Origin: Gemmatimonadota bacterium
GTDB lineage: Bacteria; Gemmatimonadota; Gemmatimonadetes; Longimicrobiales; Gaopeijiaceae
Length of the DNA: 34,216 nt
Direction of reading: 5' to 3'
Assembly: GCA_009841165.1 (NCBI GenBank)
Contig: VXMI01000089.1
Location: 1 to 34,216, forward strand
Positions 1,233-21,260 of the stretch are shown one piece after another. Made by a program: the position numbers and the translations under genes. The notes beneath the pieces are model-generated. The model saw only the letters and a list, made by a program, of their open reading frames with translations. It did no database searches and was not told the DNA's origin. Within the stretch, counting starts at the first letter, position 1; each line of letters starts with the position of its first letter.

Positions 1233-1315
1233 TCTGAGAATGTCGGGGCTGACGCTCGTGGCAGGGGCGCGCGCTCTTCGTAGGTAGATTCCTACTCGAT
1301 CCTCCACCTCACCAC

Positions 1316-1432
1316 ATTGGGGGGAACAGGTATCGCCTCATACTCCGCTTCGACTACCCGCGTCGAATCGGCTTCGTCCGGTTCGTGGGGACCCACGCCG
1401 AATACGACCGAATTGATGCCTCCCGAGTATAG
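1316..1432 (+). pseudogene. HigB-type mRNA interferase toxin, C-terminal remnant
   Basis: This stretch encodes IGGNRYRL, then IGFVRFVGTHAEYD and RIDA before TAG at 1430-1432. These match the C-terminal half of HigB toxins of the HigB_toxin (PF09907-type) family, whose genes normally precede a higA of the type found next. The frame is open only back to a TGA at 1250-1252 and upstream residues do not resemble HigB. The N-terminal half, including the start, is absent and the sequence runs directly into the end of the integrase gene. The toxin is therefore almost certainly non-functional. The stop overlaps the AGGAGG ribosome-binding site of the downstream higA, the normal arrangement of a higBA operon. 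Confidence 0.7.
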
Positions 1433-1444
1433 GAGGAAACCAGA

Positions 1445-1816
1445 ATGACAATCAGGCCGATCAGAAACGAGACGGACTACGACGCGGCACTGGCGGCGAT
1501 CGACCGCTTGATGGGGGTCGCCCCGGACACGCCGGAATCCGACAGATTAGAGGTGTTGGTGACCCTGGTCGAGAAGTACGAGTCGGCCCGGTGGCGCATC
1601 GACGCCCCGGATCCGATTGCGGCCATCCACCACATCATGGAGGCCCGTGGACTGCGACAAAAGGACCTGGCCGCTCTGATCGGCTCCCAGTCCCACGCCT
1701 CGGAAGTCCTGCGCCGACGGCGGCCACTCTCGCTGGCCATGATCCGGGCTTTGGCCACGGAATGGAGCGTTCCGGCCGAAGTGCTGGTGCGGGAATACGA
1801 GCTTGCAACGGCTTGA
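1445..1816 (+). CDS. higA: HigA-family antitoxin (helix-turn-helix), apparently orphaned
   Basis: A 123-residue protein with an acidic/helical N-terminal half and a C-terminal helix-turn-helix (about residues 55-115; DPIAAIHHIMEARGL, QKDLAALIGSQSHASEVL). This matches the long HigA/COG5499 antitoxin type, which neutralises a HigB mRNA interferase and represses the operon. Start ATG 1445 has an AGGAGG eight bases or so upstream. The partner higB immediately upstream survives only as a 3' remnant ending 12 bp before this start. The antitoxin may persist as a solitary regulator, or protect against other HigB-type toxins; that is inference. Confidence 0.8.
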   Translation: MTIRPIRNETDYDAALAAIDRLMGVAPDTPESDRLEVLVTLVEKYESARWRIDAPDPIAAIHHIMEARGLRQKDLAALIGSQSHASEVLRRRRPLSLAMIRALATEWSVPAEVLVREYELATA

Positions 1817-1995
1817 TGCGACCGCCCACGCGCTCGCCAGCGTGAACTCATGATCCCATCACACATCACCGTCGGTCGACCCGCGCCGGGCTACGAAGCG
1901 TGCGCCCTCACGCTGGTGGAGCCCGGTGCGGGGCTTCTACACGGCATCATCCCGCATCCCGACTACCGGCATCCCGGACGAGCAAGATCTGTCCC

Positions 1996-4425
1996 TCAAC
2001 TCACCGGCCTCCCCCGCGGCCGCAACACGAACAGCCCCTCACTCCAGCTCGACACCACCACGATCCCGCTCTCGAAGAACGGGTAGTTGCTCCACGCCCC
2101 GCCGAACGCAGGAAGGCCCGCATCGTCCGGCACGGTGTCGAAAAACCCGATCTCGACTGGATTCTCGACGTCGCTGATGTCGAGCACCCTGAGTCCACTC
2201 ATCAGATTCGCCTGGTAGAGACGATTGCCACGCACGTACTGGTTGTGGTCGATGGTTCCCGTCTCGGCGAAGTGTTCCTTGAGCAGCAGGGGGTCGTCCA
2301 GGTCGGCCACGTCCCAGATGAGGGTGCGGGTGCGGTCGACGCCGCCCTGCGCTTCGTCGGCCTCGTCTCCCATGAAGAAATGGCGGTGGTCCTCGGTCAG
2401 CCAGCCCTGGTGCGCGTAGGCGACGTTGGGGTACTCGCCGCGGGCGATGGCGACGGGGTTGTCGCGGTCGGTCACGTCGGCGATGCTGAGCGCGGTCTCG
2501 TTGGCGCCGAAGCAGATCTCGCGCCCCTGGTAGTCCTCGTCGGGGCCCCGGTAGATGACGCACTGGGCGTCGTGGGAGTAGCCGGTGCGCTGGCGTCCGG
2601 TGGCGGCGTCGGAGAAGCAGCCCAGGAAGACGGGCTCGGCAGGTGTGCGCACGTCGATCATGTGCAGGCCGCCGCCGCAGGTCTGGCCGCCCATGCTGCT
2701 GCCGACCGCGTACGCCATCCCCGTCTCCTCGTTGATGACGATGTTGTGGGAGCTGGCGATGCCGTCGTAGCGCGCGGTCTCGGCGAAGGTCACCGGCGGG
2801 CCCGAGGCGTCTCTGAGTTGTGTGAGGTCGAAGATCTGCACGCCGTGCGCCCCGGCGCCGTCGGCGACGATGAACGCGTGGTCGGCGTACACCTTGATGT
2901 CGCGCCAGAGGTTTTCGGTGGCGCCCTCGGTCAGCGGCAGCTCGCCGGCGTACCGTGGGTTGGCGGGATCGCTCACGTCGACGAAGGCCGTGGCGTCAGA
3001 GCGCCCGACCAGCGCCCAGTCCCGGCCGGTCACGGGGTCGCTCCAGCCCCAGATGTCGTTGAGGATCGTGCCCGGATCGGCTCCCAGCGACGCAAGCGGC
3101 ACGAACGCGACCAGGTCGACCTGCGAGCAGTCGAAGGGCCCGGTGGCGCCGTCGGTGCAGGGGGCTTCCTCGCCGGTCACTGCAGTGAGTGTTCGAGTGG
3201 ATTCTCGGAGGGTTGAGCTCTCCGCCCAGCCATCGTCCCCGCGCTCGAACACGACAGCCGCACCCAGCCGCATGTCAGCGTTGGAGGCGGCAACCACGGC
3301 GACATCGTCACGCAGGGCAACATGCGAGCCAAAGAGAGCGCCGCGGGAGAATCCGGGGGCAGGGATGGTGGATTGGGGCTCGAGGGCAACGGTGCCCGGC
3401 GGGCCCGTCTCCGCGACCCGGAAGACCTGTGCGCTGCCCGCGGCCTGGTTGACGGCGCTCGCACCGACCCACACGCTGCGGCCGTCGAAGGCCACCGCCG
3501 AGCCGTAGCCTGCCGGGCCGGATTCGGGGAAGGAGAGACGGGCGCTCGCATCCCACTCGCCGTCGTCGCTGCGGGTGAAGAGGAGAGCTGCGCCCGCTCC
3601 TTCGTCCGCGCCGGGGGCGCCGACGAGAACGGAGGTGCCCGAGGCGGCGAGGCTCGTGCCGAAGGCGTCGCCGCCGCGACCGTCGGGGAGCGCCAGGATC
3701 GTGGTGGGAGAAGGGCCGGTGGCCGGAAAGCCGGCGTTGAAGGCGTAGGCCGCGCCGCGATCGTCACGCGTCCCGGGCGCGCCGACGTAGACGAGGTCGC
3801 CGGTCAGGGAGAGCGCTGCGCCGAAACGGTCGATGGCAGAGACGACGGGGGAAGCGAGAAGCGTGGCGGATCCGCCGTCCGCGTCAAACCGCAGGATCGC
3901 TCCAGGGCCTGCGTCCGATGGCGCCCCGAGATAGACGGCATCACCGGACAGGGCGACGGAGGCACCCGCGCTCCGGATCTCCCGATCGGCTGGAGGCACG
4001 AACTCGACCGTCTGCACCCACGTGCCGTCGCTACCGCGCTCGAAGATGTAGGCTCCACCGACGCCATCGATCCGCCCCGGTGATCCCACCAGCAACCGGT
4101 CGCCGTCAACTGCCAGCGCCGCCCCGAACTCGTCGCCGATCTCGACATCGGCGCCGGCGATGATGTAGGCGAAATCCCACCCGTCGTTACCGCGTTCGAA
4201 GACATGGATACTGCCGGGCGATGGGTAGATCGCACCCGCGACTCCACCGCCCGTGCGTCCCACGAAGACCTCACCGTCGCCGATGGCGATCGCGGCACCG
4301 AAGCCGGCGGCGGCCCAGATGGATTCGAGGTCGGGGGAGCGGGATTGGGCGCTGAGAGGCGTGTGTAACGCAGGTCCGAACACCAGCGACACGCTGGCGA
4401 CGATTGCCTTGGCACGGAACTTCAT
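1996..4425 (-). CDS. Secreted FG-GAP repeat / choice-of-anchor B family protein
   Basis: An 809-residue exported protein with a signal peptide (about residues 1-26, ending LSAQ). Residues about 30-410 hold FG-GAP-type beta-propeller repeats; the pattern FGAALAVDGDRLLVGSPG and variants recurs roughly seven times. Residues about 425-805 match the choice-of-anchor B family: NDIWGWSDP, TAFVDVSDPANPRYAG, SHNIVIN, GYSHDAQCVIYRGPDEDY, AHQGWLTEDHRHFFMGDE and DHNQYVRGNRLYQAN. The conserved His and Asp residues of the last motifs suggest a metal-stabilised propeller, but the biochemical role of this family is unknown to me. The start has a strong GGAGGAGG site. The promoter region carries the 21-bp periodic operator also seen upstream of the TonB receptor and the solute-binding protein, so co-regulation with them is likely. 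Confidence 0.85.
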   Translation of the reverse strand: MKFRAKAIVASVSLVFGPALHTPLSAQSRSPDLESIWAAAGFGAAIAIGDGEVFVGRTGGGVAGAIYPSPGSIHVFERGNDGWDFAYIIAGADVEIGDEFGAALAVDGDRLLVGSPGRIDGVGGAYIFERGSDGTWVQTVEFVPPADREIRSAGASVALSGDAVYLGAPSDAGPGAILRFDADGGSATLLASPVVSAIDRFGAALSLTGDLVYVGAPGTRDDRGAAYAFNAGFPATGPSPTTILALPDGRGGDAFGTSLAASGTSVLVGAPGADEGAGAALLFTRSDDGEWDASARLSFPESGPAGYGSAVAFDGRSVWVGASAVNQAAGSAQVFRVAETGPPGTVALEPQSTIPAPGFSRGALFGSHVALRDDVAVVAASNADMRLGAAVVFERGDDGWAESSTLRESTRTLTAVTGEEAPCTDGATGPFDCSQVDLVAFVPLASLGADPGTILNDIWGWSDPVTGRDWALVGRSDATAFVDVSDPANPRYAGELPLTEGATENLWRDIKVYADHAFIVADGAGAHGVQIFDLTQLRDASGPPVTFAETARYDGIASSHNIVINEETGMAYAVGSSMGGQTCGGGLHMIDVRTPAEPVFLGCFSDAATGRQRTGYSHDAQCVIYRGPDEDYQGREICFGANETALSIADVTDRDNPVAIARGEYPNVAYAHQGWLTEDHRHFFMGDEADEAQGGVDRTRTLIWDVADLDDPLLLKEHFAETGTIDHNQYVRGNRLYQANLMSGLRVLDISDVENPVEIGFFDTVPDDAGLPAFGGAWSNYPFFESGIVVVSSWSEGLFVLRPRGRPVS

Positions 4426-4493: not shown

Positions 4494-4536
4494 TGCGTAA
4501 AATCGACATTACACAATGTCATGTCGGCATTACATA
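4494..4536 (-). promoter_or_regulatory. Periodic ACATTA/TAATGT operator-promoter, copy A
   Basis: On the plus strand ACATTA-ca-CAATGT lies at 4506-4519. After a 7-bp spacer a second half-site pair starts at 4527 (GCATTA-ca), giving a 21-bp repeat distance. Read toward the downstream gene (start 4425), ATGACA (4522-4517) is followed 17 bp later by TACGCA (4499-4494). These occupy the same register as the -35 and -10 boxes of the two sister sites at 17.55 and 21.23 kb. This is the weakest of the three copies: one half-site has a mismatch and the -10 is poor. A shared repressor site is inferred. Confidence 0.6.
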
Positions 4537-17526: not shown

Positions 17527-17550
17527 GGGGACAACTACCGGGATGTCATC

Positions 17551-17581
17551 TTAACATTACATAATGTAAATCAAACATTAC
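17551..17581 (+). promoter_or_regulatory. Periodic ACATTA/TAATGT operator-promoter, copy B
   Basis: ACATTA-ca-TAATGT at 17554-17567 is followed by a 7-bp spacer (aaatcaa) and a second ACATTA at 17575, 21 bp from the first. TTAACA (17551-17556) with a 17-bp gap to AACATT (17574-17579) gives a -35/-10 pair in the same register as the sister site at 21.23 kb. A protein bound to the half-sites would cover both boxes. It lies 90 bp upstream of the TonB receptor start used here. Confidence 0.65.
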
Positions 17582-17670
17582 GCTGCTGCATCCATGAGCT
17601 TTCTCGTGGAACCCGATTGGGACACCTCAGCTTGCGGAGGTCAGCCAAGTAGGCCAGGAGTTAGACCTGG

Positions 17671-20031
17671 ATGACGCTTGTTGGCTCGCGGATATCCACG
17701 CTGTCCGAACAACGGCCCGCCTCGCCTGCGATAATTCCCATGCATAGAGTCTCTTCCACGGCGGTTCATCCGTGTATCGGCGGAATCCGTCGGCACCTGC
17801 TCGCGCTCGTCTTGTCTTTTGCGGTCGCTCCCGCGCTCGACATTCCCCATCTCTCCGCTCAGGAGGCGGAGCAAGTGCATGTGTTCGAGGGCAATGTCCG
17901 CGACGCGGGTACCGGTCAACCGCTGGCGGGTGCACACGTATCGGTGGTCGGAAGGGAGACCTGGGCGGTCACCCGCGGGGACGGGAGCTTCCACCTGACC
18001 GGGTTGGCCGCGGGTGCCTACATCCTTCGAGCCGACCGCCTGGGATACCGGGGCGCCACCGCGGTAGTAACCGTGGGGACCGAGCGCGCGCGCCGGGCGG
18101 TGGCGGAGTCGGCAGAGGTCGTGATCGAGTTGGCACCGTCTCCCATTGCGCTGGATGACCTGGTGGTGACGGCCACGATCACCGAGCGAGCCGCGGCCGA
18201 GGCGCTCCGGCCGGTCAGCGTCATGACGGGCGATGTCCTGCAGCGCCAGATGACGGCGACCGTCGCCGGGACACTGGCGTCGATGCCGGGGATGGCCGCT
18301 ACCAGGATGGGTCCATCGGTTGCGCAACCGGTGATCCGGGGACTGAGCGGGGATCGCGTACTGATGCTCGAGGACGGGATTGCGGTTGGGGATGCCTCCA
18401 ACCAGGGCGCGGATCACACCACCGCGCTCGATCCGTCGTCGGCGCGGCGGATCGAGGTTGTGCGGGGTCCGGGTGCGCTGCTCTACGGGGGCAACGCGCT
18501 GGGCGGAGTCATCAACGTCATCCGCGACGAGATTCCGTCTGCCGCGCCGCACCACCTGACGGGCTCGGCGACTCTGCAGACACAGACCGCGACTGGCTCG
18601 CTGGCCGGCAGCGCCACGGCCGTGTTCGCCATCGCGGAGCGCGTGCCGCTGCGTGTGGAGGTGGCCGCGCGGACGGCGGGAGATCTGAAGACACCGATCG
18701 GAACACTTCTCAACACCGACGGAGAACTGTGGAGCGGGGGTGCGGGGACGGCCTACGTGGGCGATTGGGGTCGCGTGGGGGCGTCCTTCCGCGGCTACCG
18801 CAACTACTACGGCATCCCGGGCGGTTTCGTGGGTGGGCACGAGGAGGGGGTGCGGATCGAAATGGAGCGCGTGTCATCCAGGAGCCGGACCGTGATCGAT
18901 GACCCGGTCGGGCCCTTTCACAACCTCCGCTTCGACGCGACTCACTCCTGGTACACTCACCGCGAGATCGAAGCATCGGGCATTCTGGGCACGCTCTTCG
19001 AGCAACAGAGCGCGAGCGCGGACGTCCTGGGTCGGCATCGGAGGTGGGGACCGTTTGCGGCGGGCGCGATGGGCGGCCGTGCATCGTGGGAGGATTTCGG
19101 ATACGGGGGATCCCTGCATACGCCGGACACACGTCGGCTCAAAGCGGCCCTGTACCTGCTCGAGGAGGTCGATCTGGGCTCCTTCCAGATCGAGTCGGGA
19201 CTGCGCTACGACTGGACTCTGATCGATCCCGGGGAAGAGCGGGTTTCGGACATCGGTGAGATTCATGAACGCGGATTCCCCTCCCTTTCGGGATCGCTGG
19301 GTGTCCTGTACAAGTCCGCCTCCGGGCTGGTGCTCGGTGCCAGCCTTGTCCGCGCGTTTCGCACGCCCGACGTCACCGAACTCTATTCGGAGGGGCCGCA
19401 TCTGGCGGCCTACGTGTTCGAAGTCGGAAACCCGTCTCTGGAGGGCGAGGTCGGGAGGGGGCTCGACGTCTTCCTCCGCTTCGAGTCCGACCGGCTGAGG
19501 GCCGAGGTGACCGGCTTCCACAACGACATCAGGAACCACATCTACGGGGAGGACACGGGCCGCCTGAGCCGCGTGCTCCTACCCATCTATCAATTCCGGG
19601 GCAGCGACGCCGTGTTCAGCGGCTTCGAAGCCGGTGTGGACGTGGACGCCGGGAGGGGGCTGGCGCTGGAGGGGGTGGCCTCAATGGTGAACGGCCGTCT
19701 CAAGGGGACCGATCAGCCCTTGCCTCTCGTTCCTCCGCTCAAGGGACACGTTGCCGTGAAGTACGAGAGGCCGTCGTGGTATGTCCGGGCGGAGGCCGAG
19801 ATGGCCGACCAGCAGGACAGGGTTGGCGAATTCGAGACGGCGACTGCCGGGTACACCGTCTTCAACGCCGCAGCAGGCGTGCGGATTACCTTCGGCGGGC
19901 GTCTGAACGTGCTGACCGTGAACCTCGTCAACGCCGCGAATGCCGAGTACCGTAACCACCTGTCGCGGGTTAAGGAGATCATGCCGGAGGCCGGACGGAG
20001 TCTGAACGTCATGTACCGGGTGGTGTTCTAG
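17671..20031 (+). CDS. ZnuD-like TonB-dependent outer-membrane receptor
   Basis: A 786-residue receptor. An export signal (core about residues 45-64, ending LSAQ) precedes a carboxypeptidase-regulatory-like domain (about 70-145; GNVRDAGTGQPLAGAHVSVV), a plug (about 165-285; PVIRGLSGDRVLMLEDGI, ASNQGADHTTALDP, RIEVVRGPGALLYGGNALGG) and a beta-barrel ending MYRVVF. The plug, the NYYGIPGG and HREIEASG segments and the PEAGRS end resemble the ZnuD zinc receptor group. Transport would use TonB energy. Zinc as substrate is inference; copper or another metal complex is possible. ATG 17671 has AGGAG upstream and keeps a leader of the same length as the co-regulated genes. ATG 17740 would give a shorter, more usual signal peptide but has no visible ribosome-binding site. 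Confidence 0.85.
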   Translation: MTLVGSRISTLSEQRPASPAIIPMHRVSSTAVHPCIGGIRRHLLALVLSFAVAPALDIPHLSAQEAEQVHVFEGNVRDAGTGQPLAGAHVSVVGRETWAVTRGDGSFHLTGLAAGAYILRADRLGYRGATAVVTVGTERARRAVAESAEVVIELAPSPIALDDLVVTATITERAAAEALRPVSVMTGDVLQRQMTATVAGTLASMPGMAATRMGPSVAQPVIRGLSGDRVLMLEDGIAVGDASNQGADHTTALDPSSARRIEVVRGPGALLYGGNALGGVINVIRDEIPSAAPHHLTGSATLQTQTATGSLAGSATAVFAIAERVPLRVEVAARTAGDLKTPIGTLLNTDGELWSGGAGTAYVGDWGRVGASFRGYRNYYGIPGGFVGGHEEGVRIEMERVSSRSRTVIDDPVGPFHNLRFDATHSWYTHREIEASGILGTLFEQQSASADVLGRHRRWGPFAAGAMGGRASWEDFGYGGSLHTPDTRRLKAALYLLEEVDLGSFQIESGLRYDWTLIDPGEERVSDIGEIHERGFPSLSGSLGVLYKSASGLVLGASLVRAFRTPDVTELYSEGPHLAAYVFEVGNPSLEGEVGRGLDVFLRFESDRLRAEVTGFHNDIRNHIYGEDTGRLSRVLLPIYQFRGSDAVFSGFEAGVDVDAGRGLALEGVASMVNGRLKGTDQPLPLVPPLKGHVAVKYERPSWYVRAEAEMADQQDRVGEFETATAGYTVFNAAAGVRITFGGRLNVLTVNLVNAANAEYRNHLSRVKEIMPEAGRSLNVMYRVVF

Positions 20032-20045
20032 TGTGCGCTTGCTAG

Positions 20046-21137
20046 CTACCGTGCCAGCCAGGCGCTGAAGCGCTCGTTCAGTTCGTCCTGGTTGTCGACC
20101 CAGAATGCCCAGTCGTACCGAAGCGCGCGATCCATGTTGCCCGCGCTGGCCGGCATGTGGGGCGCCATGTCGACCCCCGCGACTACATGGGTCGTCACCA
20201 GCGGCATACCTGATCTGCGCGCCGGGGAATAGGAGATGCGGCGGCCGATTCGCGCCAGGGACTCGGCGCTGGTGCTGAAGGCCACGTATTCCAGAGCCTC
20301 TTCCAGCCTCGGAGTACCCGCGACGATCCCGATCTGACCCACGTCCAGCAACTGTCCGTCCCACACGATCACGAACGGTTGGTTTTCCAGGATCTGGGCA
20401 TTGAAGATGCGACCGTTATACGCCGTGCTCATGACCACTTCCCTGTCGGCCAACATCTGGGGTGGCTGGGCGCCCGCCTCCCACCAGACCACCTCGTCCT
20501 TGATCGTTGCGAGCCTGGCAAAGGCCCGGTCCAGGCCCGCCGGCGTTTCCAGCGTGCTGTACACCTCGTCAAGCGGCACGCCATCGGCGATCAGTGCGAA
20601 CTCCAGGTTCACCTGCGGTACGCGCCGCATCCCGCGGCGGCCCGGGAACTTCTGCAGGTCGAAGAAATCGGCCATGGTGGTGGGCTTTTCGTCCGGGAAG
20701 TTCTCGTCGTTGTACGCGTAGACGGTCGCCCAGTACAGATTGCCCACCCCGCACTCGGTGTGGCTTTCGGCCACGAAGTCGTCGGCCGCGGGAGTGCCGT
20801 CGGGCCCGGCCGGCAGATCGCTGATGTCTATCGGCTCCAGCAGTCCCTCGTCGCAACCGCGCACGGCGTCGGCCATCTCCAGGTCGACCACATCCCAATG
20901 GATGTTGCCGATGTCCACCTGCGCCCGTATCTGGGCCAGACCGCCGTTGTAGGCCTCCAGGCTGATGCGGATGCCGGTCGCCTCGCTGAACGGAATGTTG
21001 GCGCCCTCGTTGACGGCGCGGGCGTAGGATCCGCCCCAGGACACGACGGTGATCGACTGCCCGGCGATGGGGAGGAACGGGACGCTGGACAGGAGCGCAC
21101 CAAAGCCCAGGGCGGCCACCACCGGCAAGCGTCTCAC
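20046..21137 (-). CDS. Periplasmic solute-binding protein of the spermidine/putrescine (PotD-like) type, orphan
   Basis: A 363-residue binding protein. The signal peptide (VRRLPVVAALGFGALLSSVP ... IAGQ) is followed by ITVVSWGGSYARAVNEG, NIHWDVVDLEMADAVRGCDE, NLYWATVYAYNDENFPDEKP and FPGRRGMRRVPQVNLEFALI, the usual pattern of COG0687 proteins that feed an ABC importer. No permease or ATPase gene is nearby, so the partner is elsewhere or absent. The frame is open to 21227, but I chose GTG 21137: it has GGAG at good distance, starts the signal peptide cleanly, and leaves the operator-promoter at 21216-21260 outside the gene. It converges with the TonB receptor, 14 bp apart, and shares its operator. 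Confidence 0.8.
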   Translation of the reverse strand: MRRLPVVAALGFGALLSSVPFLPIAGQSITVVSWGGSYARAVNEGANIPFSEATGIRISLEAYNGGLAQIRAQVDIGNIHWDVVDLEMADAVRGCDEGLLEPIDISDLPAGPDGTPAADDFVAESHTECGVGNLYWATVYAYNDENFPDEKPTTMADFFDLQKFPGRRGMRRVPQVNLEFALIADGVPLDEVYSTLETPAGLDRAFARLATIKDEVVWWEAGAQPPQMLADREVVMSTAYNGRIFNAQILENQPFVIVWDGQLLDVGQIGIVAGTPRLEEALEYVAFSTSAESLARIGRRISYSPARRSGMPLVTTHVVAGVDMAPHMPASAGNMDRALRYDWAFWVDNQDELNERFSAWLAR

Positions 21138-21215: not shown

Positions 21216-21260
21216 AATGTAAATCAAACATTACATAATGTCAATCAGACATTACATCAT
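21216..21260 (-). promoter_or_regulatory. Periodic ACATTA/TAATGT operator-promoter, copy C
   Basis: The best copy. On the plus strand GAATGT-N7-ACATTA-ca-TAATGT-N7-ACATTA-ca runs from 21215 to 21256, with the ACATTA units at 21228 and 21249, exactly 21 bp apart. Toward the solute-binding protein gene, TTGACA (21244-21239) and TACATT (21221-21216) are separated by 17 bp, a near-ideal sigma-70-type promoter. The -35 and -10 both overlap half-sites. The expected transcript start is about 70 bases before GTG 21137. Confidence 0.7.

Follow-up and report, generated by a model that had tools for sequence, protein, structure and literature searches.

Autorepressors of the XRE family are already known, and the nearest solved relatives of the XRE proteins linked to the element described here are CylR2 (PDB 1utx and 2xiu) and a PbsX family protein (9k3w), which are XRE repressors of 66–72 aa. 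CylR2 acts at its own promoter region, a behaviour similar to that proposed below. Its partner, CylR1, is a membrane protein encoded beside it (PMC3709268). This pairing resembles the organization of many element-linked XRE operons, which are led by a membrane protein gene. However, CylR2 has one known target region, whereas the operator found in this study is 39 bp long, contains two dyads and is present in up to 265 copies in Candidatus Palauibacter, a genus of sponge-associated bacteria.

In cluster A mycobacteriophages (L5, Bxb1), approximately 30 dispersed sites called stoperators are bound by a repressor that also stops elongation, and the stoperator motif drifts among relatives (PMC9283540, PMC6550527). 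Stoperators are 13-bp, asymmetric sites that are located in a phage genome and mostly oriented with transcription, whereas the present element consists of symmetric double dyads, resides in a bacterial chromosome in up to 265 copies and is known here from its placement near gene ends. The phage stoperator is the nearest working counterpart of the dispersed copies. The element also resembles REPs and BIMEs in its high copy number, intergenic location and proximity to the 3′ ends of genes. However, REPs form hairpins and are associated with RAYT (Y1) transposases, whereas the element shows no pairing covariation and no Y1 transposase was found in the genus. TyrR boxes have the sequence TGTAAA-N6-TTTACA, and their outer half-sites and length match one dyad of the element; TyrR is, however, a Fis-type HTH protein of Enterobacteriaceae, whereas the gene linked to the element encodes an XRE protein. 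No cross-phylum description of this operator was found in the open-access literature searched, and to our knowledge, no bacterial chromosome has previously been described on which such an operator is dispersed on a large scale. The paper that describes the order of Palauibacter makes no mention of repeats, palindromes or motifs (PMC10469786).

The 39-bp element and its distribution

The window, i.e. the whole 34,216-bp stretch of DNA analysed, contains three sites at which a sequence-only reading had recognized the hexamers ACATTA and TAATGT recurring with a 21-bp period. These three sites are real and the period is exact, except that the hexamer at position 4527 is GCATTA and not ACATTA. Within the window, the only positions of ACATTA are 4506, 17554, 17575, 21228 and 21249, and those of TAATGT are 17562 and 21236. 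The motif had been delimited too narrowly, however. A weight matrix and an alignment of the copies in the window's own genome (G000, 4.27 Mb) defined a unit of 39 bp, TGTMA-N8-TKACA-N3-TGTMA-N8-TKACA, which comprises two 18-bp dyads (TGTMA-N8-TKACA) with 3 bp between them and a pitch of 21 bp. Read toward the SBP_bac_8 gene, element 3 forms TTGACA-N17-TACATT (Table 1).

Table 1. Elements and adjacent genes in the window
Feature	Position	Strand	Mismatches	Location	Other flank
Element 1	4496..4534	.	1	70 bp upstream of the LVIVD/FG-GAP (choice-of-anchor-B) gene	46 bp past the stop of a methyltransferase gene
Element 2	17544..17582	.	1	17 bp past the stop of the 16264-17526 gene	TonB-receptor gene, called start 88 bp away
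Element 3	21218..21256	.	0	38 bp past the stop of the 21295-22332 gene	SBP_bac_8 (PotD-like) gene, start 80 bp away
LVIVD/FG-GAP gene	1996..4425	-		Downstream of element 1	
TonB-dependent receptor gene	17671..20031	+		Downstream of element 2	
Solute-binding protein (SBP_bac_8) gene	20046..21137	-		Downstream of element 3	

The three sites have flanks that are not duplicates of one another, and 8 of the 12 orthologues keep element 1 at the same place, 70–110 bp ahead of the LVIVD gene; both findings agree with independent conservation of the sites rather than recent duplication, which the sequence-only reading had named as the contrary outcome. The DNA past element 1 differs by clade, and this element is located at a synteny break. 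In genome G002, the right dyad of element 2 is nearly identical to that of G000, while the left dyad and the adjoining 42 bp are different. Between these two very close species, the stretch from the integrase to the LVIVD gene (window positions 1257–1958 versus L188:1078–1460 in G002) has been swapped; it contains an HTH_3 (HigA-like) gene in G000 and an element plus a short tandem repeat in G002. The TonB-receptor and solute-binding protein genes (window positions 17671–21137) are also found together in G004 and G008 (L160, L161), with no element nearby.

In the whole G000 genome, TAATGT-N7-ACATTA was detected at 172 places with ≤2 mismatches compared with 14 for the reversed pattern, which served as the control, a number far above chance. 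The 39-mer was detected in 107 copies at ≤2 mismatches (control, 0) and in 117 copies at ≤3 mismatches (control, 1). The regulon of three genes that had been proposed from the window is therefore not tenable; the number three arose because the window represents only 0.8% of the genome. Most context statistics given below were obtained from 1.41 Mb of G000, which was partly chosen for containing sites. ACATTA is the most over-represented hexamer in this portion and recurs at offsets of 5, 8, 13, 16 and 21. It contains 57 copies that deviate at ≤4 of the 20 defined positions (none for the reversed control), 55 with ≤2 mismatches and two with 3–4. Past four mismatches, little except register-shifted echoes was detected, and decayed copies are almost absent.

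Among the 23 genomes of Candidatus Palauibacter, 22 contain 29–265 copies, and no copy was found in G009 even with a looser pattern. The other genera of the family and order contain 0–2 copies each. On two complete chromosomes, the copies are distributed over the full length; those of G021 and G001 are irregularly spaced, and the positions listed show no evident excluded region. Identical copies are present at two places in G001, and three identical copies in G021 (C1:207279, 207528 and 207777), with an exact period of 249 bp, represent a tandem triplication.

Association with XRE repressor genes

An exact-pattern scan of a collection of species genomes provided 50 non-Gemmatimonadota loci among the matches listed. 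In 37 of these 50 loci, a small XRE gene is located −20 to 1600 bp downstream of the element in the right orientation, and the 50 loci contain just 39 small XRE genes (p ~2e-33 versus random placement). The 37 listed loci are derived from lactobacilli, Exiguobacterium, Bacteroidota, Planctomycetes, Spirochaetes, Acidobacteria, Chloroflexi and Patescibacteria, and also from archaea. The element facing the XRE gene forms TTGACA-N17-TACATT, and the first gene of the operon in many of these loci encodes a membrane protein with 3–5 predicted TM helices. Within the order, two other genera (L141, L142) carry a single copy upstream of an operon that encodes a 72–74-aa XRE-family regulator. Because of this recurrent XRE gene downstream and the promoter-like boxes formed by the element, the element is the predicted autoregulatory promoter-operator of a widespread CylR2/PbsX-like XRE family. 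The earlier idea of a repressor-type operator with built-in −35 and −10 boxes was thus supported by loci from unrelated phyla. This assignment would provide a precise long operator for a family of tiny repressors that is among the most widespread in bacteria and archaea, and would make the targets of that family predictable from sequence.

The exact element was also found on viral contigs, and 9 of 40 have a small XRE gene 25–83 bp downstream (L245, L246, L253, L254, L257, L259, L262, L283 and L284), so the autoregulated repressor may also be present in phages or prophages. The downstream XRE genes rule out a chance origin for most of the listed genome matches outside Gemmatimonadota and for these 9 of the 40 viral matches.

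In approximately 2 Mb of Palauibacter DNA, the sole match to the small-XRE profile was an XRE-PBP_like fusion protein of 388–391 aa (PF01381/PF13560 plus PF12727), whose HTH is ∼40–53% identical to those of the small XREs. Its gene (e.g. L346:4212-5375) was found in two Palauibacter species, each time with a perfect element ∼80–85 bp upstream, a link that is partly selected because both loci were sampled for containing an element. The gene was not found in the third of G000 examined (1.41 Mb). With moderate confidence, we regard XRE-PBP_like as the likely cognate protein of the Palauibacter elements. PadR and BlaI were also considered as binders and were dropped when the XRE link was found.

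Gene context and sequence constraint in Palauibacter

According to our own gene calls, 33 of the 57 copies are located between co-directional genes, 13 between convergent genes and 6 between divergent genes, while 3 fall within called genes and 2 lie at the edge of a contig. When compared with the available intergenic gaps (≥39 bp), convergent gaps are over-used (p = 0.03) and divergent gaps under-used (p = 0.01). The gaps on the stop side are short, and in ten or eleven copies, TGTAA supplies the TAA stop codon of the neighbouring gene; in loci from other species, the median gaps are 32 bp to the stop and 125 bp to the start. A copy between convergent genes cannot be a promoter operator, and this convergent, stop-hugging placement argues against a promoter operator as the main role.

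The superposition of the half-sites on −35 and −10 boxes had been taken as evidence of promoter function in the window. This argument did not hold, because the element by construction contains a TTGACA-like/TACATT-like pair in both directions, and promoter-likeness is accordingly equal, with values of 7.58 when the copy is read toward the gene, 7.52 when it is read in the other direction and 7.65 for copies between convergent genes. No directional promoter signal was found at the G000 copies, nor was any −35/−10 signal fixed outside the element. The flanking genes are unrelated (e.g. those for DNA Pol I, Pol III alpha, PGAM, citrate synthase and ThyX), and we found no common function and no enrichment in metal or TonB functions among them. 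The suggested metal or TonB regulon was thus abandoned, and a Fur/Zur/MntR-type metal operator was rejected on the same grounds. Among the element-flanking genes of L345–L424, four match Transposase_31 (YhgA-like) and three match DUF4143/AAA_14, which are accessory or mobile families.

Two convergent sites were traced through approximately 20 genomes. At site A, the element is present with diverged spacers in 11 of the 21 genomes; some of the other genomes have remnants, and the remainder have no element. Site B is restricted to the clade of G000, G002 and G014. In the 1.41 Mb of G000, hairpin-plus-T-run terminators were found at only 2 of 376 element-free gene ends.

In 23 orthologue-like pairs from G000 and G002, only 1 of 368 bases at the 16 invariant core positions was changed, versus 57 of 437 in the dyad interiors and centres (p = 6e-15). 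The pairs were picked among copies with few core mismatches, a biased choice that would still have permitted a core change of approximately 10%. This pattern places the presumed contact bases under strong purifying selection. No base-pairing covariation was found at the variable positions, and the combination of C at position 3 with G at position 14 is almost never seen in the G000 dyads; 3/14 pairing in this genome is rarer than expected. Because of this lack of covariation, the site is most simply a double-stranded protein target. The two dyads of the G000 copies behave as independent draws, no pair of copies is closer than the motif predicts and the flanks share nothing in most cases.

Alternative explanations and a proposed model

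Each copy could be an ordinary promoter operator of one master regulator that controls approximately 100 genes. The conserved position of element 1, the frequent placement between co-directional genes and the operator nature of the ancestral single copy are consistent with such a global regulon, but the excess of convergent and scarcity of divergent placements, the neighbours without common function and the promoter-likeness without direction make it rather unlikely. The copy number of 0–265 inside one genus, the presence or absence at syntenic convergent sites and the duplicated copies in G001 and G021 might instead suggest a selfish, MITE-like repeat, in which the element is the recognition end of mobile DNA without a cellular role, and many elements of G011 indeed reside inside a longer repeat that is also found alone. 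However, the resemblance among the G000 copies does not exceed that of independent draws from the motif, with mostly unrelated flanks (MITE copies in this genome were rejected for this reason), their core bases are conserved at orthologous sites with almost no decayed copies, the same element marks XRE genes across phyla, and neither the window's integrase nor any Y1 transposase accounts for the elements, the former not tracking them and the latter not being found in the genus. We therefore consider a purely selfish origin unlikely. An attC/dif-like recombination site of the integrase was likewise rejected, because the integrase is phyletically unmatched and the G000/G002 breakpoints are off the element, although a synteny break is present at element 1.

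It is very unlikely that the element is the site of a chromosome-organising protein (matS-, Noc- or parS-like). The strict motif, the intergenic placement and the spread over the whole complete chromosome of G021 would fit such a site, but there is no evident excluded region, the spacing is irregular in G021 and G001, and the copy number falls to zero within the genus. ParB is essentially single-copy and also present in the element-free G009; no extra ParB paralogue was found, with one ParB per Palauibacter genome plus one sub-threshold match in G015, and the XRE protein linked across phyla is a simpler binder. A macrodomain mark was rejected because the copies cover the entire chromosome. An RNA or single-strand hairpin element (terminator, REP or attC-like) would explain the palindromic dyads and their placement right after stop codons, but it is hardly credible in view of the missing covariation, the deficit of 3/14 pairing in G000, the absence of a T-run and the lack of any Rfam match in the window. 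Specifically, an intrinsic terminator was rejected because the T-run is absent and such terminators are nearly missing from the genome, and a REP element because there is neither pairing constraint nor a RAYT transposase.

We regard the element as a probable two-dimer operator of the small XRE (Cro/CI-type, CylR2/PbsX-related) family, dispersed in Palauibacter with XRE-PBP_like as the probable binder. One dimer would bind each 18-bp dyad, and the two dimers, positioned two helical turns apart on the same DNA face, would bind cooperatively. In the ancestral state, which most lineages would retain, one copy overlies the −35 and −10 boxes of the repressor's own operon, which often opens with a small membrane protein gene, and would mediate autoregulation by closing this promoter. 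In Palauibacter, the operator has been copied, or has arisen, at many gene ends, and selection on the contact bases maintains the ∼30–265 intergenic copies; some of this multiplication may have occurred by hitch-hiking in a longer repeat, as in G011 with its 265 copies. Where a copy is located 50–150 bp upstream of a start codon, as are the three in the window, the bound protein would probably adjust the expression of the gene that follows. Copies between convergent genes would more likely act as a roadblock or insulator at transcript ends, or as a genome-wide protein sink. Elsewhere a single copy fronts a tiny repressor gene, and many of the intergenic copies of Palauibacter cannot be ordinary on/off switches. 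The motif, its copy number and phylogenetic range, the constraint, the gene context and the link to XRE genes across phyla are observations; from them, we infer the binding itself, the role of XRE-PBP_like as the Palauibacter binder and the roadblock, insulator or sink action.

The near-absence of hairpin-plus-T-run terminators makes a protein roadblock attractive, although it proves nothing. As a more speculative extension, which we offer tentatively, the operator may have left its own promoter and been exapted as a chromosome-wide gene-end mark, such that one small-molecule-responsive XRE-PBP_like protein, bound to hundreds of constrained double operators, insulates or terminates transcription between neighbouring genes across a genus with almost no intrinsic terminators. 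With a high-copy, selectively maintained operator and a natural variation of 0–265 copies, Palauibacter represents a ready system for the question of how a local switch becomes a global one and whether bound repressors replace terminators at gene ends.

A second dispersed intergenic repeat of ∼70–80 bp (..GAGCGAAGCGGTCCAGCCCGGATGCATCGCCGCTCGAATGCC..TGTCCACGGGCTG) often adjoins the 39-bp element and is also found alone, and some element copies may be passengers of a mobile repeat. In G011 (COS4_bin_2), this second repeat is present at L364, L377, L413, L423 and other loci; in G000, it is present at L082:16414-16493, L078:18480-18544 and L057:8037-8104.
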